From Alphaproteobacteria bacterium (GTDB lineage Bacteria > Pseudomonadota > Alphaproteobacteria > Caulobacterales > Parvularculaceae), in assembly GCA_016125425.1 (NCBI GenBank), contig WGLT01000003.1:186001-250000 (forward strand): a DNA stretch of 64,000 nucleotides, in the 5' to 3' direction. The notes beneath the pieces were generated by a model. That model was not told the DNA's origin and searched no databases. It saw only the letters and a list, made by a program, of their open reading frames with translations. Each line of letters starts with the position of its first letter. Position 1 is the stretch's first letter. Positions 43,753-55,521 of this stretch are shown one piece after another. The translations under genes were made by a program, and so were the position numbers.

Positions 43753-44039
43753 CTCTTAAAACCCCTCCCGAACCGGACGCAACGCCCCCTCTGGCTGATC
43801 GACGCTACACGAGCCGCTATGGAGGGCCAACCGCGGCGCGTTCGATCCGCGACGTTTCCCGCTCCGCGGGACGAACCTGGTAGCATTTATGACCAAAGCG
43901 TGTTTTGCGATGCCGCGCAGGACGGTCTATACGGACTGGCTCGGCCGATCGGCCGCCATTGCCGCCGCAGCGGCGGCGTGAAATAACCGTGCGACAGTCC
44001 GCAGCGGCAAGCCGGACGGCGCAATGTGAGGGGTACTGT

Positions 44040-45032
44040 ATGTCCGAGGCGGCGCAACCGCTGCGGGTGATCTTGGCGCAACCGCGCGGTTTTTGCGCGG
44101 GCGTAGAACGGGCGATCGACATCGTCGAACGCGCGCTCGAGAAGTACGGCGCGCCGGTCTATGTCCGCCACGAGATCGTGCATAACAAGCGTGTCGTCGA
44201 CACGCTGAAAGCCCGCGGCGCGATTTTCGTGGAAGAGGTCGATGAAATCCCCGAGGGCGCCGTGACCATCTTTTCCGCCCATGGCGTTTCTAAGAAGGTC
44301 GAGGACGGCGCGGAGCTGCGAACCCTGGACGTCATCGACGCCACCTGTCCCCTCGTCACCAAGGTCCACAAGGAAGGCCGACGCTATGCGGAGCGCGGCT
44401 ACGACATCGTACTGATCGGCCATCTCGGCCATCCGGAAGTCGAAGGCACGCTCGGCCAGATCCCGGGCACGGTGCATGTCCTCAGCGAGCCGCATGAGGT
44501 CGCGGCGCTCGAAGTCGCCGATCCTGAACGGGTCGCATTCGTCACGCAGACGACGCTCTCCGTGAACGACACCAAAGACGTTATCGCCGCCTTGCGCGAG
44601 CGCTTTCCGAAGATCGTCGGACCAGATACGCGCGACATCTGCTACGCGACTCAGAACCGCCAGACAGCCGTAATCGAGATGGCCAAGAAAGTCGATCTGT
44701 TGATCGTTGTCGGCGCCAACAATTCATCGAATTCGAACCGATTGCGCGAAATCGGCGAGAATTTCGGCGTGCCGAGCTATTTGATCGAAGACGCGACCAT
44801 GCTTGATCCGGCTTGGTTCGACGGCGTGAAAACAGTCGGCGTTACGGCCGGCGCCTCGGCGCCGGAGACGCTTGTTCAGGAGGCGATCGTCCGCATCCGG
44901 GAATTCCGCTCGCTTACGGTCGAGACGCTGGACGGCGTCGAGGAGAATGTTCACTTCAAATTGCCGCGTGAGCTCGCAGATGTGCCGCGTCCGAAAGATG
45001 CGATGGACGCCTGGGCGACCGAGAGCGCCTGA
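44040..45032 (+). CDS. ispH: 4-hydroxy-3-methylbut-2-enyl diphosphate reductase IspH
   Basis: This 330-residue [4Fe-4S] enzyme does the last step of the MEP pathway and makes IPP and DMAPP. Cluster cysteines are in [11 protein letters not shown] (about 19), DATCPLV (about 103) and [11 protein letters not shown] (about 201), with the GHPEVEGT histidine motif and the SSNSNRL diphosphate site. GAGGGG precedes the ATG at 44040. It is followed after 35 bases by hpnH. Confidence 0.97.
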
Positions 45033-45067: not shown

Positions 45068-46222
45068 ATGGGAGTATCGCTTCATCAGCAATTGCGGGTC
45101 GGCGGTTATGTGCTCAAGCAGACGCTGATGGGGCGCAAGCGTTATCCGCTTGTCCTGTTTCTTGAGCCGCTTTTCCGCTGCAATCTCGCCTGTCCCGGAT
45201 GCGGCAAGATCGATTATCCGGCTCCGATCCTCAACAAGCGCCTCTCGGTGCAGGAATGCCTCGATGCCGTCGATGAATGCGGCGCGCCGGTCGTCGCCAT
45301 TCCGGGAGGCGAACCGCTGATTCACAAGGATATCGGCGAGATCGTCGCCGGCATCGTCAAGCGCAAGAAGTTTGTTTCGCTCTGCACGAACGCGCTTTTG
45401 CTTGAGAAAAAACTGCACCTCTTCAAGCCGTCGCCATTCCTGTTTTTCTCTGTCCATCTCGATGGTCTCGAAGAAGAACATGATCGCGCCGTTAATCAGA
45501 AGGGCACATTCAAGATTGCGGTCAAAGCGATAAAGGCCGCGCAGGACAAAGGCTTCCAGGTCAATGTCAACGCGACGATCTTCGACAATATGACCGCAAA
45601 GCAGGTCGCGGATTATCTCGATTTCGCGACCGATCTGGGCTGCAACATTTCGATCTCGCCGGGTTACGCCTATGAGCGCGCCGAGGACAAGGAACATTTC
45701 CTGTCACGCGAAAAGACGAAGAATCTCTTCCGCGACGTCTTCCGAATCGGGAAGGAACGCGGGCGCCAATGGAATCTGTCGCATTCGACCCTGTTCCTGG
45801 ATTTTCTTGCGGGCAATCAGGAATACCACTGCACGCCCTGGGGCTCTCCGACACGCAATGTCTTTGGTTGGCAGAAGCCCTGCTATCTCCTCGGCGAAGG
45901 CTATGTGAAAACCTTTAAGGAGTTGATGGAGACGACCGACTGGGATCAGTACGGCACCGGCAAATATGAAAAATGCTCGAACTGCATGGCCCATTGCGGT
46001 TATGAGCCGACGGCCGCGATGGATGCGGTGAAGAATCCGCTGAAGGTCTTCAGGCTCTCGAACATGTTCAAGATTAAGACCGAGGGTCCGATGGCCCCGG
46101 AAATCGACCTGTCGAAGGCGCGCAAGGCGGTCGACCTCCACGACAAGATCGTCGCGGAGGAAATGTCAAAGATCGAGGCTGAAAAGAAGCCGGCGAAAGA
46201 GCCCGCCCAGGCTATTGCGTAG
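45068..46222 (+). CDS. hpnH: Adenosyl-hopene transferase HpnH (radical SAM)
   Basis: This 384-residue radical SAM enzyme adds the adenosyl group to diploptene, the first step of extended (C35) hopanoids. It starts MGVSLHQQLRVGGYVLKQ, as HpnH proteins do, and has the cluster motif CNLACPGC (Cys 38, 42, 45), GGEPLIHKDI and a C-terminal CSNCMAHCGYEPTA. It is coupled with ispH. The 3' end overlaps convergent hpnG by 57 bases. Confidence 0.96.
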   Translation: MGVSLHQQLRVGGYVLKQTLMGRKRYPLVLFLEPLFRCNLACPGCGKIDYPAPILNKRLSVQECLDAVDECGAPVVAIPGGEPLIHKDIGEIVAGIVKRKKFVSLCTNALLLEKKLHLFKPSPFLFFSVHLDGLEEEHDRAVNQKGTFKIAVKAIKAAQDKGFQVNVNATIFDNMTAKQVADYLDFATDLGCNISISPGYAYERAEDKEHFLSREKTKNLFRDVFRIGKERGRQWNLSHSTLFLDFLAGNQEYHCTPWGSPTRNVFGWQKPCYLLGEGYVKTFKELMETTDWDQYGTGKYEKCSNCMAHCGYEPTAAMDAVKNPLKVFRLSNMFKIKTEGPMAPEIDLSKARKAVDLHDKIVAEEMSKIEAEKKPAKEPAQAIA

Positions 46223-46867
46223 ACTTTTTAACGCCGTTTCCGAATCCGAACCGAGTTGCAGCAGCGCCGGCAATTGCGCCGGCGCTTTCGCGCATTTCCA
46301 CAGCACCGAAAGCGTTCGCGTCGAGCCGTCTGGAGCGACCGCATTAAGCGCGGCAGGCGGCAAGGCGCGCGAGGCCGGATCGGCGATAGCCCGGATCGCC
46401 GCGAAAGGAACGCCAGCGGCGCGCGCCGCACGCGCCGCGCCGTGGCTCTCCATATCGACCGCGCTTGCGCCGTAGCGTTCGAAGAGCATGGCCTTTTCAC
46501 GCGCGGATGCAACGATTTCGTCCGATCCGAAAATAATCGCGCGCGGCGTTGGAACCTCAGTGCCGGCTGCTTCCAGCGATGCGATCAGATTGGCGCTCGC
46601 GGCGTACTCGCTGCCGCTCCTCGTGCGGATAGCAGAGCCCAGAATAATGTCGCCGCTCACAAGATCCGGCGCCAGACCGCCGGATACGCCGACGGAGAGG
46701 ATTGCTGCCGCGCTCTCGCAACACAGGCCACGCGCCAATTCCTCAGCACGTTCTGCGCTTGCGCCAGAAACGGCGATTCGAATTTTCTCTGCCGGCGCAC
46801 ACGCCCGCACGACGGCCGCTTCCGACTTTAAGCCGCAGATGACGGCGATGAACTGGTTTGCGCTCAC
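46166..46867 (-). CDS. hpnG: Hopanoid-associated phosphorylase HpnG
   Basis: This 233-residue nucleoside-phosphorylase-like protein removes adenine from adenosylhopane to give ribosyl-hopane. Visible motifs are VICGLKSEAAVVR, ILSVGVSGGLAPDLVSGDIILGS, VDMESHGAARAARAAGVPFAAIRAIADPA and the C-terminal helix. It lies 69 bases after hpnE on the same strand; the squalene-hopene cyclase gene that often sits between them is absent. Confidence 0.93.
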   Translation of the reverse strand: MSANQFIAVICGLKSEAAVVRACAPAEKIRIAVSGASAERAEELARGLCCESAAAILSVGVSGGLAPDLVSGDIILGSAIRTRSGSEYAASANLIASLEAAGTEVPTPRAIIFGSDEIVASAREKAMLFERYGASAVDMESHGAARAARAAGVPFAAIRAIADPASRALPPAALNAVAPDGSTRTLSVLWKCAKAPAQLPALLQLGSDSETALKSLRNSLGGLFRRLLFSLDL

Positions 46868-46936: not shown

Positions 46937-48217
46937 TTAGGCGCTTCCTCCTGTTCGCGTCCAAACAATCTCGGCCGCACGATCCCCCGACCTGATCGAA
47001 CCTTCGATCGTCGCTGGAACGCCCGTGTTCGTGTAATCGCCGGCGAGGAGCAGATTGGCGTAGCGCGTTTCAGGATGCAGCCGTTTGGCCGCGCCTTCAG
47101 GCGACTGATCGGGCGTCGCGCGCCGTTCGCGAATGACCCGCACGGCTTCATAAGGCATATCGCCGAGCTCCAGCGCAATCTGCGTTTCGCGCCAGAGATC
47201 CTCCACCACTTGCGCATTCGGAACCTCGTCCATGCCGATCGCATGACTGGCTGAAACGGTGAGGCTCACAATGTCGTCGCGAACAAAAGCCCATTGCGCA
47301 TCCGATGCGACCATGCCGATGAACGGCGAATCCCCAAGCGCGGTTTTCGGAACGGGGGACGGCGTCCGATAATGCACGTTAAGGATCGAGGCGCTGTCGT
47401 CCGGCGGGTCGAGCTCAGGCAAAAGCTGTCTCAGGCGTGAGGGCGGCACCGCCAGGATGACATGGTCATCGACGCCGACATCTACGCTGTTTTCAGGAAA
47501 CTCGAGCCCGCCGACGCGACCATCCTGAAACCAGAGATTTTTCAGCCGCGCATTGAAATGGACAGTCGCGCCGCGGCCCCTCAAATACGAGATGGCCGGG
47601 TCTACAAAGGCCGCCCCCAACCCTTTCCGGGCGGCGAGCGGACGGCAGGCCTTACCGCCCAACGCAAAGGTCTCACGGATGACTGACCATAATAGCTTCG
47701 CTTGTCCGGTCGCCGGCGTCGTGTTGAGGACGGCGAGCGTCAGCGGCTCCCAGAAGCGCGCGTAAAGCACGCTTTTGTCATCGACCACTTCCGCAACGGT
47801 CTGCCGGCGATTTGCGAGCGCGATTTTCGCTGCTTTGACGTAGTCGAACGTGTGCGACCCCGGGACACGCGCATGCTTGTTGAGGACCCAGGTCGGAATA
47901 AGCCCGTCATTAATCTTAACGCGCCAGCGTTCGCCCGACCTGATGTCGACAAAGGGATATTCAGCGGCGGAAGGTCCCGTCAGCGCGTCGCTTGATCCAA
48001 TCCTTTTCAGGTAGTCGAGCGCATGGCGATTGCCCGACATGATGAGGTGATTGCCGTTGTCGATTACACGGTCAAGCGTCTTGTCGTAGAATGACCTGCA
48101 CCGTCCTCCCGCATGGCCCGCAGCATCAAACAGCGTGACTTTCACGCCTCGCTCAGCAAGGCGCGTCGCCGCAGAAAGACCGGATAAGCCGGCGCCGACG
48201 ATGAAGGCTTCGCCCAT
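46937..48217 (-). CDS. hpnE: Hydroxysqualene dehydroxylase HpnE
   Basis: This 426-residue FAD amine-oxidase-like protein has the dinucleotide fold AFIVGAGLSGLSAATRLAERGVKVTLFDAAGHAGGRC and a C-terminal FAD segment (LLLAGDYTNTGVPATIEGSIRSGDRAAE). It reduces hydroxysqualene to squalene, completing the HpnCDE route. It is preceded, 6 bases away, by the oxygenase gene. Confidence 0.95.
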   Translation of the reverse strand: MGEAFIVGAGLSGLSAATRLAERGVKVTLFDAAGHAGGRCRSFYDKTLDRVIDNGNHLIMSGNRHALDYLKRIGSSDALTGPSAAEYPFVDIRSGERWRVKINDGLIPTWVLNKHARVPGSHTFDYVKAAKIALANRRQTVAEVVDDKSVLYARFWEPLTLAVLNTTPATGQAKLLWSVIRETFALGGKACRPLAARKGLGAAFVDPAISYLRGRGATVHFNARLKNLWFQDGRVGGLEFPENSVDVGVDDHVILAVPPSRLRQLLPELDPPDDSASILNVHYRTPSPVPKTALGDSPFIGMVASDAQWAFVRDDIVSLTVSASHAIGMDEVPNAQVVEDLWRETQIALELGDMPYEAVRVIRERRATPDQSPEGAAKRLHPETRYANLLLAGDYTNTGVPATIEGSIRSGDRAAEIVWTRTGGSA

Positions 48218-48223
48218 AAATGA

Positions 48224-48892
48224 TCACAGTCTGATGAAGGACGAGGGCTTATCCTGCTGTACGCGGTTCGATCCTTTTGCTGTCCCCCAGGAGGCGACAA
48301 CATAGGAAACGCCGCTTGTCACCGGCTTCGTCTCCACTACGTAGCGATGATCGGACGGAAAAGCGACGAGAAGTCCGGTCACCGGATTCATCCCGAAGTC
48401 GAAATTCGGAAAATAGAGCTGACCGCCCTCGAAATTCTCGTTGAGAAACAGAACCAGGCTGTAATCGCGATTGGCGTTGCGCCGCCAAGTCCTGTTTTCA
48501 GCGTCCCAGCTCTCTGCGTCAGCGTGCGGCGCTTGGCCGGAGCCGGCGCGATATCGTAGCAGCATCGGCGCTTCAAAACCTTCGATTTGAACATTGTAAT
48601 GCTGGGATACCAGTCCGGCGAAAGCGTGGCGCATGAGCGCGCCCATATTCACAGATTGCGAGTCGATGCTGCTGCTCCGGGCGCCTTGCCCGTTACCTGA
48701 CAGCTTGCTTTCGCATTCGGCGACATATTTTGCGCAAAGGTCGATCGGAAGGAATTGACGTATCGCCACCACGCCCGGCGGGGCTGCGCCAAGCGCCATC
48801 ATCATCCCAACAGGTTGCTCCGGGCAGAACCCCGCCCAGTTCGCCGGCTCGAGAGGCCCTCCGACGACCAGTCCCTTTTCGTCAAATTCCAC
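48224..48892 (-). CDS. 2-oxoglutarate/Fe(II) oxygenase-like protein within the hpnCDE operon
   Basis: This 222-residue double-stranded beta-helix protein of the prolyl-4-hydroxylase type has the iron triad His123-x-Asp125 (APHADAE) and His182 (SDHRYVVE), with LVLFLNENFEGGQLYFPNFDF and the GLLVAFPSDH strand as in that family. The Arg or Lys normally held in the following GxR/K to grip 2-oxoglutarate appears to be Ser (SGVSYVV). The gap to hpnE is 6 bases and to hpnD 2 bases, so it is co-translated with squalene synthesis genes. A role in hydroxylating squalene, a hopanoid or a protein is inference. I know no named hpn gene for it. Confidence 0.87.
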   Translation of the reverse strand: MEFDEKGLVVGGPLEPANWAGFCPEQPVGMMMALGAAPPGVVAIRQFLPIDLCAKYVAECESKLSGNGQGARSSSIDSQSVNMGALMRHAFAGLVSQHYNVQIEGFEAPMLLRYRAGSGQAPHADAESWDAENRTWRRNANRDYSLVLFLNENFEGGQLYFPNFDFGMNPVTGLLVAFPSDHRYVVETKPVTSGVSYVVASWGTAKGSNRVQQDKPSSFIRL

Positions 48893-48894
48893 GA

Positions 48895-49770
48895 TCAGAC
48901 TTCCTTTAGCTTAGGTGCGAAAAACCATCGTGCGGAGATCGCAGCCTTCTCAATGCGCGAGAGCGAAGGACGCGCACCCAAGTCCCATCCGCCCTGGCTT
49001 ATTTTGAGCAAATAGGCCTCGTAAACGCCCATCATCAACAGCGCCGGTCGAAGTATACGCCAATCGAGCGAAGAGAGCGCAGCGCGCGCTTCGGCGAATT
49101 TGCCGGCCGCCACTGCGCCGAGCTCGCGGCCGATCTCCGGCAGCGCGGGCGACGCCAATAGCGCGTCCGGCGTCAGCGGCGCGCCGTGCTTCACGAGAAG
49201 CTCGCGCGGCAGGTAAAGTCGGCCGATGGCGGCGTCCTCGGCGACATCCCGGAGAATATTGGTGAGCTGCAAGGCGTCAGCGAGCGCGAGGGCGAAGCGA
49301 TCCGACGCTTCGCCGCGAGGCGCGCCGAACACCGGCATGGACAGCATGCCGACCGAACCCGCAACGCGGCGCGTGTAAGCAAAGAGCGTCGACATGGGCG
49401 GGGCTACGATCGGACCTTCCGCATCCATCTCCATGCCTTCGATCATCAGAAGGAATTCCTTCTTCGGAAGATCGAACGCCTGTACGGCGGGCAGAAGCGC
49501 CGCGCCCGTCGGGGTTTCCGGCCCGCCGTCGAACAGACGGTCGATTTCAGCGCGCCAGTCAGTGAGTCCGCGCCGCTTTACGGCGAGCGGCGCGTCATCG
49601 TCCGCGATGTCGTCAACCTCACGACAGAAGGCGTAGATTGCATGCATCGCCTCGCGGCGCGGTTTCGACAAAATTCGCATCCCTGCCGCAAAAGAGGTGC
49701 CTGAGCGCTTGACCGTCGCTTCGGCGTGCGCGCGCGCGTCTTCCAGCGAAGGCAATGCCGAGGCGCTCAT
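48895..49770 (-). CDS. hpnD: Presqualene diphosphate synthase HpnD
   Basis: This 291-residue squalene/phytoene synthase family enzyme has FAAGMRILSKPRREAMHAIYAFCREVDDIADDD (first Asp-rich motif) and LQLTNILRDVAEDAAIGRLYLPRELL (second motif). It joins two farnesyl diphosphates to presqualene diphosphate. Its start overlaps the stop of hpnC by 4 bases (ATGA). Downstream it is followed by the oxygenase after 2 bases. Confidence 0.95.
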   Translation of the reverse strand: MSASALPSLEDARAHAEATVKRSGTSFAAGMRILSKPRREAMHAIYAFCREVDDIADDDAPLAVKRRGLTDWRAEIDRLFDGGPETPTGAALLPAVQAFDLPKKEFLLMIEGMEMDAEGPIVAPPMSTLFAYTRRVAGSVGMLSMPVFGAPRGEASDRFALALADALQLTNILRDVAEDAAIGRLYLPRELLVKHGAPLTPDALLASPALPEIGRELGAVAAGKFAEARAALSSLDWRILRPALLMMGVYEAYLLKISQGGWDLGARPSLSRIEKAAISARWFFAPKLKEV

Positions 49771-50666
49771 TTCGGCGCGCCCCGGCCCGCTGAGAAAAAG
49801 CCGGAAATCGCCCCTCGAAAGCCCGCCGACACGAAGTCAAACTTTGCAAGCGCGACCCGGCTCGCCAGCGGATCTCCTCTGCGCAACAGAATGATCAGCC
49901 GCGCGGCGAGATTGACGATCACCGCCGATTCCATCGCGAGACTTCTGGAATTCAGCGCTGCAGGCAATGCTCGCGCGTCCTTCATTAACGTTTCGCAACC
50001 TGTCAGCATGCGGTCGATTACCCGTCGCAGAGGCGGGGTGAGCGCGCTTTTGTCGAGATCTTCGATGGCGCCGCCTTCTTCGGCAAGCCAGTCGCCAATG
50101 ACGTACACGCGGTCGAGATTGCGCCGGTCATCGCCGCAATCCTGAAGATGATTGACGATTTGAAGAACCGTACAGAGCGCATCTGAATATCTGTAGGCGG
50201 ACTTATCCTCGCCGTGCAGGTCAAGAAGATAGCGTCCGACGGGATTGGCCGAGAGCGCGCAATAGCCGAGGAGTTCCTTCCAGGTCTTGTAGCGGAGCTT
50301 CACCGCGTCCTGGAGGAAGGCGGCGATAAGGTCCGAGCCGTGCTGCGTGGTCACCCCCGTCTCAGCCATACTGGCGCGCAGCGCAGCCGCCTTTTCATAG
50401 CCGGCCAGCTCAGACTCTCCCTTCAGAACGGCGTCAAACCCTTTGAGACGACGGATTTTTTCGTCTGCCGACAAGCTTCCATTATCGGCCACGTCATCGA
50501 TCGCTCTCGCGAAAGCGTAAAAGGTCGCCACATGCGGACGAAGCCGTCTGGGCAGCAGAAAAGAGCCGACGGGGAAATTCTCATCCCCCGCGCCTTTGCC
50601 TGAGGGCGTTTCGGCTGCGCCCTGCGCGCCGAGCGCCTGTTCTGATGCCTTCACGGTCGCCGTCAT
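49767..50666 (-). CDS. hpnC: Hydroxysqualene synthase HpnC
   Basis: This protein of about 299 residues belongs to the same prenyl synthase family as HpnD: FLLPRRLRPHVATFYAFARAIDDVADNG and VNHLQDCGDDRRNLDRVYVIGDWL. HpnC converts presqualene diphosphate to hydroxysqualene. The start at 50666 fits family length; the frame is open upstream to 50741. It heads the hpnC-hpnD-oxygenase-hpnE operon and is divergent from hpnB across 90 bases. Confidence 0.94.
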   Translation of the reverse strand: MTATVKASEQALGAQGAAETPSGKGAGDENFPVGSFLLPRRLRPHVATFYAFARAIDDVADNGSLSADEKIRRLKGFDAVLKGESELAGYEKAAALRASMAETGVTTQHGSDLIAAFLQDAVKLRYKTWKELLGYCALSANPVGRYLLDLHGEDKSAYRYSDALCTVLQIVNHLQDCGDDRRNLDRVYVIGDWLAEEGGAIEDLDKSALTPPLRRVIDRMLTGCETLMKDARALPAALNSRSLAMESAVIVNLAARLIILLRRGDPLASRVALAKFDFVSAGFRGAISGFFSAGRGAPK

Positions 50667-50756
50667 GGCGAGACCTTTACGGCTTTTCCCGCAGGCTGCA
50701 AACCGCCGTCCGGGAAGGCTTGGCGCGAGGCTCAGCCTCACCTAGAGCGGCTTGTC

Positions 50757-51920
50757 ATGACCTTGAATTTCATCGCCGTCCTGTCGCTCGCCCTTTGGCT
50801 CTATCTCCTGCTCGGCCGGGGATTTTACTGGCGGGCGCGCGAAAGGCTGGGCGAGGCGCCCGCGCCCGCACGCTGGCCGGAGGTCGTCGCGGTTATCCCG
50901 GCGCGCGACGAAGCGAACGTAATCGCAAGCTCGATCGCCTCGCATATGGCGACCGACTATCCAGGCGCTTTCACGGTCGTGCTCGTCGACGACGGGTCGG
51001 AAGACGGCACCGCAGCGATCGCGCGCGCCGCGGCGGCCGACGCCCCTCGCCGGCTGGAGATCGTTCCGGGCGCGCCTCTTGAACCTGGCTGGACCGGAAA
51101 ACTCTGGGCGATGCAGCAGGGAATCGCTCGCGCGAGGACCTTGGCCCCGCAGGCGCGCTATCTCCTCCTCACGGACGCCGATATTGTCCATGCGCCGTCC
51201 GCGCTGCGCCGCCTCATCGCCAAAGCCGAAGCGGAAAACCTCGCCCTCGTCTCTTTGATGGCGCGGCTCGACGATCGCGGCCTATGGGGCTCGCTCCTCA
51301 TCCCGGCTTTCGTCTATTTCTTCCAGCAACTCTACCCATTTCCCCTAGTCAACCGGCCGCAACGCCCGGAAGCGGCCGCGGCAGGCGGCTGCATGGTCGT
51401 GCGCCGCGACGCGCTCGAAGCGGCGGGCGGGGTCGAGGCGATATGCGGGCGTTTGATCGATGATTGCGCCCTCGCCGCGCTCATCAAGAACGCCCGGACG
51501 CCGTCGCCGCGCCGCATCTGGATTGGTCTCGCGGACCGCGAAGTCGAAAGCCGGCGCGACAATCGGCGGCTGTCATCGATCTGGAACATGGTCGCCCGCA
51601 CCGCTTTCGAGCAGCTGCGACATTCGACGAGGTTTCTTCTCGGCGCCGCGATCGGGATGACTCTGCTCTATCTTGCGCCGCTTGCCGTCATTTTCTCATT
51701 CCCGTTGCACCGCAATGCGTATGCGTTCGCGCTCGCAGCATCGGCATACGGAATAATGACGTTAACCTATCTGCCTACGATCAGGCTCTATGGCGCGCCG
51801 GCCTGGAAGGCGGCCCTGCTGCCGGTCGCCGGCTTATTCTACCTGTTAATGACGTTGTCCTCCGCATGCCGATACTGGCGCGGCGCGGGCGGAATGTGGA
51901 AGGGTCGGAGCTATGCATGA
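50757..51920 (+). CDS. hpnB: Hopanoid biosynthesis-associated glycosyltransferase HpnB
   Basis: This 387-residue GT2-type transferase has an N-terminal helix, VIPARDEANVIASSIASH, VDDGSEDGTAAIAR, PGWTGKLWAMQQG, the metal motif LLTDADIVH, and C-terminal membrane helices (LLGAAIGMTLLYLAPLAVIFSF and others). HpnB is consistently linked to hopanoid loci, but its sugar acceptor is not settled. It is transcribed away from hpnC. Confidence 0.93.
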   Translation: MTLNFIAVLSLALWLYLLLGRGFYWRARERLGEAPAPARWPEVVAVIPARDEANVIASSIASHMATDYPGAFTVVLVDDGSEDGTAAIARAAAADAPRRLEIVPGAPLEPGWTGKLWAMQQGIARARTLAPQARYLLLTDADIVHAPSALRRLIAKAEAENLALVSLMARLDDRGLWGSLLIPAFVYFFQQLYPFPLVNRPQRPEAAAAGGCMVVRRDALEAAGGVEAICGRLIDDCALAALIKNARTPSPRRIWIGLADREVESRRDNRRLSSIWNMVARTAFEQLRHSTRFLLGAAIGMTLLYLAPLAVIFSFPLHRNAYAFALAASAYGIMTLTYLPTIRLYGAPAWKAALLPVAGLFYLLMTLSSACRYWRGAGGMWKGRSYA

Positions 51921-52347: not shown

Positions 52348-53319
52348 TCAAACCAGCAGGCCTTTGCGCTCAAACCACTTGAGCGCAGCGACAAGAGCGT
52401 CTTCGAAAGAAGACGCCGTCCATCCGAGCTCCCGTCGCGCCTTCTCGCTTGAAAACGTAACCGGGCGGCCTGCGATACGCACGCCCGTCAGCGGCGCCCT
52501 GGGCGCGGCCCCCGTAATGCGCGCAAGGCCGGATTCGGCGAGCGCGGCGGCGAACGCGACTTTATATGGAATTTTCGTCTTCGGCATCAACCGTCCGCTA
52601 AGCGCCTCCAGTCGATCGAGCAGCGCGCGCATGGCGATGTTTTCTCCGCCGAGAATGTAACGCTGGCCTCTCCGGCCGCGATCGCGCAAGGCGATAAAGC
52701 CGTCAGCAAGGCTATCGACAGCGACGAAATTCAGCATGCAGTCGATAAAAGCGGGCGTGCGACCATTGACGAAGTCGAGGATCATGCGCGTCGGCGGGGT
52801 CAGGCGGCTATCGCCCGCGCCCAGCGGTTCGGTCGGAATCGCAATGACGGCGTCGAGGCCGTCCAGCACGGCCGCTTCGACGGCGCGGTCGGCCCGAAGC
52901 TTCGATAAGGGATATGCGCCGAGCATATCGGCCTCGTCCGGCCGCGACATTTCATCGATCACACCGCCCCACGTGCGCCGGCCGATCAGCACTGTCGGAC
53001 TAGAGCAGTGCACGAAACGGCGGACGCCCTCGGTCTTTGCAGCGGCAAGCATGACCTGCGTTCCAACGCGGTTCGTCTGGTCGAATGATTTAGGTTTCGC
53101 TGACCACAATTGCGGATTGCCCGCAATATGAAAAACCGTGTCGACGCCGGCGCAGGCGCGTCGTGCTGTATTCTCATCCGTGACAGATCCCTGGATATCG
53201 TCTTGCGACGTCGGGGCCGCCAAGTCGAGAACGCGAACGCGCTCGCCGCGTTCTTTCAACCTTTGAACGAGGCGGCCGCCTATAAATCCGGCGCCGCCCG
53301 TCACCAGAGAGAGCGTCAC
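52348..53319 (-). CDS. hpnA: Hopanoid-associated sugar epimerase HpnA
   Basis: This 323-residue extended short-chain dehydrogenase has LVTGGAGFIGGRLVQRLKERGERVRVLD, DTVFHIAGNPQLW, VHCSSPTVLIG and, where most members have YxxxK, the motif YPLSKLRADRAV. HpnA is predicted to modify a sugar or the polyol head of hopanoids. It overlaps the paraoxonase-like gene upstream by 4 bases (ATGA), so it is the third gene of an operon with a sulfotransferase. Confidence 0.92.
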   Translation of the reverse strand: MTLSLVTGGAGFIGGRLVQRLKERGERVRVLDLAAPTSQDDIQGSVTDENTARRACAGVDTVFHIAGNPQLWSAKPKSFDQTNRVGTQVMLAAAKTEGVRRFVHCSSPTVLIGRRTWGGVIDEMSRPDEADMLGAYPLSKLRADRAVEAAVLDGLDAVIAIPTEPLGAGDSRLTPPTRMILDFVNGRTPAFIDCMLNFVAVDSLADGFIALRDRGRRGQRYILGGENIAMRALLDRLEALSGRLMPKTKIPYKVAFAAALAESGLARITGAAPRAPLTGVRIAGRPVTFSSEKARRELGWTASSFEDALVAALKWFERKGLLV

Positions 53320-54407
53320 GACGACCTCTTGCAGACAAGAAGCCCCTCGTCTGTCACCGACCCGAGCACAAGCGCGCCGGCGCTTTCTATTGCGACAGTC
53401 GCTGCGCTGAACAAAGCGCCGGAAATGTCGTCAAAAAGGATTTCCACGGCGCCCGTTTTCTCGTCGACCTTAACGACGCGTGAGGGCGCGCGGCCAATGC
53501 CGAATAGCCGGTTGAGCCCGATGCGAAGCATCGACGGATGCACGGCCGTTACGATGCCGCCATCGTCTGCAATCGTCACATTATCGGGACCGCCCGGCAC
53601 CGGAATACGGGCGAGCAGGCCGAGCCCGCGCGCGCTTTTTTGAAGGATAATGATTGCGCGCTCACGCGTTCCCGCCAGCGCGATGTCGCCATTCGCAAGA
53701 CGCGCCAGACCGTTGGCGTAGGCTGCTCCGTCGAACAACATGCGCCCGTCGCGATCGACGACGCCGCTTTTCCTCCAGGAGAGCGCTTCTTCTATTTTCG
53801 CGCGCCATCCGGCGAGGCCGTGATCGAAGGTCACGAAAAGCTCGCCTCCCTCCGCGAGAATGTTATTGGCATGACGAGGCGCCGGCCCCTCTCCGGCCAC
53901 GTAGACGGCGCCGTCCTGGCTGATGCGCTGAACGCGCGGCGTCATCGACCATTTTTCGTTGATCTTCTGGTAGCCGCGATTGACGAACGCAATTTCCTCT
54001 GTATCGGGATCATAAGAGACGCCGACCGGCCGGAGCCCGCCCGGAACATCCTCTCGATTGATCAACGGCGCTACGGTCATTTCCGCCGCATCGGTTTCGA
54101 CAAGCGCCTTGTAGGAAATTTCGTAAATTCCGCCTTCCGGAACCGAGAAAGCGCGTTCTCTCACGGCCTTGGCCACGGCCAGCCTGTCGTAGGCGGAAAG
54201 AAATAACCGGCCCTTGCGACGGTCGAGCGAAAGATCCTCGATCCCGACGATGGATTTGCCGGTTGACGAATCCACCAGTCGCACCCGTCGGCACTGCTCC
54301 TTGGCGTATACGGGCTTTGACTCCGCTTTCACGGCGCATCCTCCTGCGGCAAGTGAAAGCGCCGCCAGCAAGATCGTCGCACTAAGCCGCCCCCGCATCT
54401 TCGTCAT
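53316..54407 (-). CDS. Paraoxonase/SMP-30-like propeller lipoprotein lacking catalytic histidines
   Basis: This protein of about 363 residues is related to the paraoxonase at 2345-3439: VGIEDLSLDRRKGRLFLSAYDR, ISQDGAVYV, RHANNILAEGGELFVTFDHGLAGW, GPDNVTIADDGGIVTAVHP and a terminal GSVTDEGLLVC. It keeps the GIED, HANN and GPDN calcium-type residues. Where the active paraoxonase has PHGIS and INH, this one has RPVGVS and VNRG, so both histidines are missing. The N-terminus is a likely lipoprotein signal (LSLAAGGC). ATG 54407 was chosen; 54398 is possible. It overlaps the sulfotransferase by 26 bases and hpnA by 4. Confidence 0.82.
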   Translation of the reverse strand: MTKMRGRLSATILLAALSLAAGGCAVKAESKPVYAKEQCRRVRLVDSSTGKSIVGIEDLSLDRRKGRLFLSAYDRLAVAKAVRERAFSVPEGGIYEISYKALVETDAAEMTVAPLINREDVPGGLRPVGVSYDPDTEEIAFVNRGYQKINEKWSMTPRVQRISQDGAVYVAGEGPAPRHANNILAEGGELFVTFDHGLAGWRAKIEEALSWRKSGVVDRDGRMLFDGAAYANGLARLANGDIALAGTRERAIIILQKSARGLGLLARIPVPGGPDNVTIADDGGIVTAVHPSMLRIGLNRLFGIGRAPSRVVKVDEKTGAVEILFDDISGALFSAATVAIESAGALVLGSVTDEGLLVCKRSS

Positions 54408-55521
54408 GGCGCAATTCCCCGCGCGCTTGCCCCTGCTCTCCTCCCGGGCGCGCATACCCCCATTTGTCGAGGAAGTAGCCGAGCCGCCTCGAGACTTTTT
54501 CCGCGGCTTCATCCGAGTAGTCGAACTTGTTTTTCTTGAAGCTGCGAACGGACGCAAGATAGGCGGCGAAAGCCGGCCGCGCCAGATCGAATCCGGGCAA
54601 ATTGAGGGTCGAATAGACCTCTTCGAGCGCCGCCATCGGATTTTGATCTAGCTCGGAATAGCGCAACTCGATGAAGCGGTCAGCCGGAAGGCCCGCCGAT
54701 TCCGTTTCGATCTTCCTCATCATGCGCTCGTAAACGTCGAGAATTGTTTCGTCGATATCGACATGCGCATAGTCCTGAAGAGCGAATTCCTTTAGAAGTT
54801 TTGACCAGAAATTCCGCATGGAGACAAAAACCTCATACGGATTCCGGTGGATATGAATGAATTTCGCTTCCGGGAACATTTCGAGAAGCATGGCGAGTCG
54901 CGCCGTATACGTTGGATTTTTGATGAGAAGCGGTTTTCTTCCCTGATAATGCGAAAGCTTTCGCATCAAATACAGGAACATCCGCCGCCAGCCCTCGACC
55001 TCTTCCGGCCCGCAATCGTCGAAAAACAGGCCCCGATACACGAATTCGCGAAAGGCGCGCGGAAAGTAGATGCCGTGATAGAAGGACAGGTCGCTCATAT
55101 TCGCGACGGCGATCTCGTCTTCTTGCGGGCTGTCCGGCTTCACGGGAATGTTGTCGATGAACCGGTGCTCCGGCAACGCACGCTCGAGCAGCGGCCGGAA
55201 AGCCTTCGCCAGTCCGAAAAGGTCCCATGGAAGCCCCGTCGCGACCGGCGGGACATACGCCCAGTCGCCGCTCTGGGTCATGGTGTTGTAGAGATGGGTC
55301 GTGCCCGAACGCCAATGCCCGAGAATAAAAACGGGCGGCGCAACATCCTCCGCCGCCGGCAGACGGCTTTCCATCAAAATGCGTTCGGCGGCCGAAAACG
55401 GCCATCGCCCCAGGACAGACAGGGCGATCCCTGCGCCTGCGAGAGGCTTGTCAGGCAGCCCGGCGCGGCGGACGACGGCGGCAAGCGTCCCGATATTGGC
55501 GCCGCTGAGCGGATGGGCCAT
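54382..55521 (-). CDS. Sulfotransferase family protein
   Basis: This 379-residue protein has the PAPS 5'-phosphate loop FILGHWRSGTTHLYNTMTQ and the 3'-phosphate region FIHIHRNPYEVFVSMRNFW, with IKNPTYTARLAMLLEMFP before it and a C-terminal LGYFLDKWGY. It would transfer sulfate to a hydroxyl or amine of an unknown acceptor in the cytoplasm. It is the first gene of a leftward operon with the paraoxonase-like lipoprotein and hpnA, so a lipid or hopanoid-linked acceptor is a reasonable guess. Start ATG 55521 (a TTG precedes it). Confidence 0.88.
   Translation of the reverse strand: MAHPLSGANIGTLAAVVRRAGLPDKPLAGAGIALSVLGRWPFSAAERILMESRLPAAEDVAPPVFILGHWRSGTTHLYNTMTQSGDWAYVPPVATGLPWDLFGLAKAFRPLLERALPEHRFIDNIPVKPDSPQEDEIAVANMSDLSFYHGIYFPRAFREFVYRGLFFDDCGPEEVEGWRRMFLYLMRKLSHYQGRKPLLIKNPTYTARLAMLLEMFPEAKFIHIHRNPYEVFVSMRNFWSKLLKEFALQDYAHVDIDETILDVYERMMRKIETESAGLPADRFIELRYSELDQNPMAALEEVYSTLNLPGFDLARPAFAAYLASVRSFKKNKFDYSDEAAEKVSRRLGYFLDKWGYARPGGEQGQARGELRHDEDAGAA

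Follow-up and report, generated by a model that had tools for sequence, protein, structure and literature searches.

The closest described counterpart of the locus presented here is the hpnC-hpnD-hpnE squalene operon of hopanoid producers. As far as later hopanoid products are concerned, a 2025 survey of Alphaproteobacteria describes, near the hpn clusters of the strains studied, no candidate for the formation of bacteriohopane-pentols or -hexols, and among the strains surveyed these compounds were reported only from Rhodospirillales and Sphingomonadales (PMC12583986). In the window, by which we mean the whole 64,000-nucleotide stretch of Parvularculaceae DNA that was analysed, gene order and orthologs are like those of the squalene operon, but one additional gene, hereafter gene x, occupies the gap between hpnD and hpnE, giving the order hpnC-hpnD-x-hpnE-hpnG. 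The neighbours of x were identified with NCBIfam models; the squalene-hopene cyclase gene lies on a different contig of the same genome. The features of the locus are as follows:

43905-45032, plus strand: ispH (ORF coordinates; as the family match begins only around residue 54, translation probably starts further inside the listed ORF)
45068-46222, plus strand: hpnH, adenosyl-hopene transferase (TIGR03470, 528.7 bits; cut-off 225.05)
46166-46867, minus strand: hpnG, hopanoid-associated phosphorylase (TIGR03468, 190.4 bits; cut-off 187.1)
46937-48217, minus strand: hpnE, hydroxysqualene dehydroxylase (TIGR03467, 346.6 bits; cut-off 283.05)
48224-48892, minus strand: gene x, a P4H-type 2OG-Fe(II) oxygenase-fold protein, probably a pseudoenzyme (222 aa, GTG start)
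48895-49770, minus strand: hpnD, presqualene diphosphate synthase (TIGR03465, 265 bits, slightly below the cut-off of 278.6)
49767-50741, minus strand: hpnC (TIGR03464, 263.5 bits; cut-off 250.45)
50757-51920, plus strand: hpnB (TIGR03469, 479 bits; cut-off 379.25)
52348-53319, minus strand: hpnA-like epimerase/dehydrogenase (TIGR03466, 302.4 bits, below the cut-off of 367.65)

The GTG start of x lies 2 bases past the hpnD stop codon and its end lies 6 bases ahead of the hpnE start, in agreement with a preliminary description of this DNA that had placed the gene inside the squalene operon at this same spacing. A Shine-Dalgarno-like AAGGAAG was spotted by eye directly 5' of the GTG, and inspection by eye of the 3' end of x revealed no obvious ribosome-binding site of its own for hpnE. 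The protein matched the Pfam family PF13640 (2OG-FeII_Oxy_3) with 31.9 bits, above the curated cut-off of 27, and this match together with the predicted fold bears out its earlier assignment to the Fe(II)/2-oxoglutarate (2OG) oxygenase superfamily. Since the Pfam match exceeds the cut-off and close homologs exist, x is not a chance ORF. A genome search found it to be the single close copy in the window's genome, and a PHROGs search with x returned 2OG-oxygenase and other matches, all of them weak. We conclude that x is a real gene of a known superfamily, for whose setting between hpnD and hpnE no report was found among the titles listed by a literature search covering hopanoids together with oxygenases, hydroxylases, prolyl 4-hydroxylase, Parvularculaceae and Marinicaulis.

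Two other features of this genome were observed. An ORF of 413 aa with a lipoprotein-like start, as judged by eye, adjoins hpnA (53316-54557, minus strand); searches of Pfam and NCBIfam gave nothing significant for it, and a sequence search of the PDB gave no match at E <= 1. This ORF is likewise found beside hpnA, at 38-47% identity, in 10 of 13 related loci that carry x, and the three loci without it comprise two that end at a contig edge and the relocated copy of genome G018 (see below). In addition, a putative second, distant P4H-type domain was found at the end of a long ORF with repeat-like sequence elsewhere in the window's genome (G000:C21:20236-20568, locus L034).

A homolog search across 149 genomes, the window's included, identified close homologs of x in 13 others (14 copies, with E-values from 8e-56 to 6e-40), and the idea that x might be a unique orphan gene was discarded on this ground. 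The gene lies between hpnD and hpnE in 12 of these 13 carriers, one of which (G036) has a tandem pair, and the active-site residues are complete in the x of all 12. Titles of the 12 matching named contigs read Marinicaulis (7), Parvularculaceae (3) or Alphaproteobacteria bacterium only (2). A survey of hpnD-hpnE gaps in other genomes had been proposed in the preliminary description, and it showed that the gap gene recurs: with HpnE called at E <= 1e-60, 43 of 62 Parvularculaceae genomes bear HpnE, and the gap is occupied by x in 13 of the 43, that of the window among them. For the other 30, no x match was found at E <= 0.01 in the stretch of DNA searched around hpnE. None of the eight other genomes of the window's genus (three of which are less than 85% complete) contained a close x, and HpnE was found in seven of them.

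Phylogenetic analysis grouped the hpn-embedded copies and the relocated G018 copy in a 15-row clade, with support values of 95/91 in a 50-row tree and 97/95 in a 21-row tree, neither of which fixes the position of the window copy within the clade. The end branch of the window copy is the longest in this clade (1.14 in the 50-row tree), followed by that of G018 (0.92). A topology test placing the G018 copy outside the hpn-embedded copies gave an AU p value of 0.19. On a tree of HpnE and HpnD, the presence of x requires at least 11 changes, compared with a mean of 11.3 for shuffled labels; as this is as many as for random labels, x has been gained and lost often. These data are best explained by one settlement in an ancestor, after which x was duplicated and repeatedly lost; transfer between operons may also have occurred. 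The two tandem copies of G036 (L040, 8471-9184 and 9239-9958), both located between hpnD and hpnE, are not sisters. A recent tandem duplication in this genome was rejected, because the two copies form no clade (AU p 0.002), which suggests that the array is old or that a second copy was acquired.

For the window protein, the AlphaFold2 model was confident, with a pLDDT of 93.6 and a pTM of 0.90. Foldseek matched this model to its best solved structures at E-values of about 1e-9, and VIA-align gave, for the best 50 matches listed, Z scores of 15.9-17.1 over 161-191 residues (rows within 1 being tied), all within residues 24-217. Among the best structural matches were the viral collagen prolyl hydroxylase (vCPH), PHD2, P3H1 and the EF-Tu prolyl hydroxylase of P. 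putida. At the sequence level, the best match to solved bacterial P4Hs was weak (E 3.4e-5). Judging from the model, which is nearest to P4H/PHD structures, x belongs to the P4H-type fold group by descent, and the fact that its structural neighbours act on proteins gives a hint that a protein may be the type of substrate used by the x family.

The active site was read from two alignments. Alignment A2 comprises the window protein and 48 relatives from 46 of the 52 loci of a profile scan (two loci supplied two copies each); it excludes L091, L114, L115, L120, L127 and L132, which are split, partial, second or fused copies, and retains three further fused relatives after trimming. Alignment A3 comprises 43 relatives, that is, A2 minus six rows, the window row being among those dropped. 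The codons concerned are:

48518-48526, minus strand: codons 123-125, the retained H-A-D metal motif
48446-48448, minus strand: codon 149, Phe; Tyr in the 14 other Parvularculaceae copies
48347-48349, minus strand: codon 182, His, formerly proposed as third ligand; column variable in the family
48335-48337, minus strand: codon 186, GTG, Val; all 48 other aligned relatives have the distal iron-binding His here
48305-48307, minus strand: codon 196, TCC, Ser; all 48 other aligned relatives have the 2OG-binding Arg/Lys here

The preliminary description had read an iron triad made of His123, Asp125 and His182. The first two residues stand, as the H-x-D pair is present in all 49 rows of A2. The third does not: the His shared by the family stands in column 186, where every one of the 48 other rows has it and the window copy has Val. 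In the relatives, this His is placed 10 residues ahead of the Arg/Lys, and when the A3 profile was compared with solved prolyl-4-hydroxylases, their 'LH' fell on it in each of the four alignments listed; the His of this 'LH' we take to be the distal iron ligand of those enzymes. With Val in the distal His column, the facial triad of the window copy is therefore incomplete. We also considered His182 as a replacement ligand, and rejected it. Its column carries His in 24 of the 48 other A2 rows, each time together with His at 186. Within the hpn-embedded rows, the 13 apart from the window's hold H, Y, S, A, W or G there, three of them His. The strand formed by residues 186-188 of the window model corresponds to residues 203-205, His203 among them, in the model of an intact copy, and residue 182 sits in a short helical turn preceding that strand. 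The replacement of the 2OG-binding Arg/Lys by Ser, already pointed out in the preliminary description, was confirmed at column 196, since all 48 other A2 rows have Arg or Lys there. Moreover, residue 149, which is Phe in the window copy, is Tyr in all 43 rows of A3 as well as in the 14 other Parvularculaceae copies (the 13 of hpn operons plus that of G018), and the matching Tyr of PHD2 touches 2OG. On this comparison, 2OG turnover by the window copy has most likely stopped.

Sequence constraint differs between the intact copies and that of the window. In the intact close pair G055/G058, x showed a dN/dS of 0.10, compared with 0.10-0.19 for hpnC, hpnD, hpnE and hpnG, and is under firm purifying selection. 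The window copy is changed at 10 of 39 otherwise invariant x columns and retains 29, whereas each of 12 other copies is changed at 0-3 of 29-32 invariant columns (15 of 363 in sum); this difference (Fisher p 2.7e-5) ignores phylogeny, and the count is biased against rows lacking a close sister, such as the window's, since pairs such as G055/G058 mask each other's changes. An isolated row, G019, served as a partial control and was changed at 0 of 29 columns in x and 17 of 186 in HpnE, while the window's own HpnE and HpnD were changed at 10 of 179 and 6 of 122 invariant columns, respectively. Both the invariant-site and the pairwise counts exclude G018 and one G036 copy, and the HpnE and HpnD counts are given without G060 and G051, respectively, because of contig ends. 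The window frame itself contains no stop codon or frameshift, and its codon-position GC content (0.63/0.45/0.66) is normal. Neutral simulation gave a chance of about 0.00003-0.03 of finding the frame open at 0.12-0.15 substitutions per site, the value varying with the indel rate assumed. Neutral decay alone is thus disfavoured for the window copy, and its open frame implies either some function or a late inactivation.

In view of the residues it has lost, we consider it likely that the window copy of x derives from an hpn-operon-resident P4H-type oxygenase and has been catalytically disabled. Most likely, a P4H-type Fe(II)/2-oxoglutarate oxygenase would have settled once in the hpnD-hpnE gap of a Parvularculaceae ancestor, after which some lineages would have kept it as an operon gene with tight spacing and many others would have lost it. 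Elsewhere among its carriers, x has the appearance of a complete enzyme under selection. The window's lineage has preserved the H-x-D pair and the fold, but its distal His has changed to Val, the 2OG-binding Arg/Lys to Ser and the conserved Tyr to Phe, and its still-open frame may represent a late relic or encode a non-catalytic member of the HpnC/D/E group.

The preliminary description had instead proposed that the protein hydroxylates squalene, hydroxysqualene or a hopanoid precursor, or that it uses a different co-substrate. An active oxygenase of this kind, whose third ligand was His182 or whose co-substrate was unusual, would agree with the 2- and 6-base gaps in the operon, the retained H-x-D pair and an open frame of normal composition. 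However, His182 lies outside the ligand position of the family, in a turn four residues ahead of it, the substitutions at positions 186, 196 and 149 dismantle the iron/2OG site, and the structural neighbours are mostly peptidyl-proline hydroxylases, so that we regard this reading as very improbable. Given the loss of the distal His, the 2OG Arg and the conserved Tyr, oxygenase activity of the window copy is unlikely, as is hydroxylation of squalene or hopanoids by it, and the proposal is not upheld. The chance that x is a spurious ORF or an assembly artefact appears close to negligible: beyond the draft state of the window's genome (31 contigs), we found nothing in its favour, and the family match, the recurring place, the confident fold and the presence of two separate in-frame substitutions all speak against it.

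A disabled descendant, which is the reading we prefer, could have had two fates that we consider about equally likely, neither of them reaching an even chance by itself. On the one hand, the window copy may be a relic heading for deletion, either inactivated recently or held open because breaks would harm hpnE translation. This would be consistent with the patchy occurrence of x in relatives and its absence from the eight congeners searched, with the surplus of changes at invariant sites, and with the lack of an obvious ribosome-binding site for hpnE, by eye, in the 3' end of x; it is harder to reconcile with the low probability of an open frame at such divergence in the neutral simulation, with the 29 of 39 otherwise invariant residues retained and with the confidently predicted fold. 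On the other hand, the protein may be a maintained pseudoenzyme, that is, a non-catalytic P4H-fold partner or regulator of HpnC, HpnD or HpnE, or of whatever its ancestor hydroxylated. A frame intact despite the neutral expectation, the retained fold residues and the tight operon spacing point in this direction, but 30 of the 43 HpnE-bearing relatives manage without x.

Relatives of x also occur away from hpn genes. A scan of genome contigs with the single x protein found no relative, and an alignment-based scan yielded 52 loci. The preliminary description had named homologs widely found away from hpn genes as an argument against a hopanoid role, and this argument holds in part: in 40 of the 52 wider-family loci no clear hpn gene was found in the flanks (some of which are short; L093 and L113 had weak matches), and genome G018 adds a case within the same family, so that the x family is not confined to genomes with hopanoid genes. 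The G018 copy has complete residues (L047, 8490-9257) and adjoins a DUF1223 gene and an aconitase-like gene, the latter named by eye. Searches of this genome gave no match to shc and none to HpnE above the cut-off, and in place of the hpnC-hpnD pair they gave two SQS_PSY matches, one strong and one weak; a hopanoid role for x is hardly plausible in G018. The strong match would represent a phytoene synthase, given the desaturase-like match about 1.4 kb from it. With the x profile at 1e-15, 15 of 385 sampled alphaproteobacterial genomes matched, the window's included, and the 15 loci in the other 14 had no match to hpnA, B, C, D, E, G or H (E <= 1e-4) within up to 1.5 kb on each side. No neighbour recurred widely in the wider family, where shared flanks were found in small groups only (for example, L122/L124/L126).

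Several of these relatives carry additional domains. A SEC-C motif was present in 19 of the 49 A2 members; this zinc motif lies N-terminal to the oxygenase domain in mostly gammaproteobacterial relatives, such as L105 (5476-6219). Three near relatives are fused to a PF11397 GlcNAc-transferase domain (L098, 4739-7630; L100, 3890-7630; L096, 897-2714), with the oxygenase domain behind PF11397, and two of the three also have a sub-threshold AhpC/TSA match. These three proteins represent a bacterial hydroxylase-glycosyltransferase architecture. Protein hydroxylation is a natural guess for the wider family, since the enzyme responsible for glycosylating the hydroxyproline of Skp1 belongs to PF11397.

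For the intact x copies, we give hydroxylation of a protein side chain about an even chance, and we think that it is somewhat likelier than oxidation of squalene or hopanoids, because of the fold, the settings of the wider family and the G018 copy; the recurring place in the hpn operon counts in the opposite direction. That the intact members of the clade (the window copy excluded) act on a squalene or hopanoid intermediate as oxygenases, adding for example a side-chain hydroxyl, would accord with this recurring place in 12 genomes besides the window's, with purifying selection comparable to that of hpnC in one pair and with the genes for bacteriohopane-pentols and -hexols being unknown according to PMC12583986. 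We nevertheless find it doubtful, given the P4H/PHD fold, the relatives away from hpn genes, the complete G018 copy in a genome where hopanoid genes were not found, the 30 of 43 HpnE-bearing family genomes without x, and the same paper's report that, of the species it studied, only Rhodospirillales and Sphingomonadales had pentols and hexols (PMC12583986). More improbable still would be the combined case of a clade of undescribed squalene/hopanoid 2OG oxygenases, candidates for hopanoid hydroxylation or for O2-dependent control of HpnD/HpnE, whose window member has turned into a non-catalytic partner of the squalene enzymes that is still selected.

Genes for some hopanoid side-chain hydroxylations are unknown, and an oxygenase found repeatedly in the hpnD-hpnE gap of a single family offers a concrete candidate that can be deleted, with the protein-hydroxylase reading at least as likely; despite our preference for a protein substrate, the intact copies deserve to be tested for changes in hopanoids. 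The clade, in which x is found intact, relocated, duplicated, absent or disabled around a single locus, also offers a good natural series for studying how an operon-embedded enzyme is shed. The window copy itself calls for caution against reading an iron triad from a lone sequence, as the alignment reveals the loss of the usual ligand.

Compared with the P4H/PHD (EGLN) group, represented by PHD2, vCPH and the P. putida EF-Tu hydroxylase, the predicted fold and the H-x-D pair are alike, at identities of 17-28% among the matches listed, but the window copy lacks the distal His, the 2OG-binding Arg/Lys and the conserved Tyr. Likewise, its score exceeds the cut-off of Pfam PF13640, yet the residues that give this family its chemistry are partly missing. 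The proteins that combine a SEC-C motif or a GlcNAc-transferase domain with a 2OG oxygenase, mostly from Gammaproteobacteria, belong to the same wider oxygenase family as x, and differ from the window copy in having an extra zinc motif or glycosyltransferase domain, a complete active site and no clear hpn neighbour.
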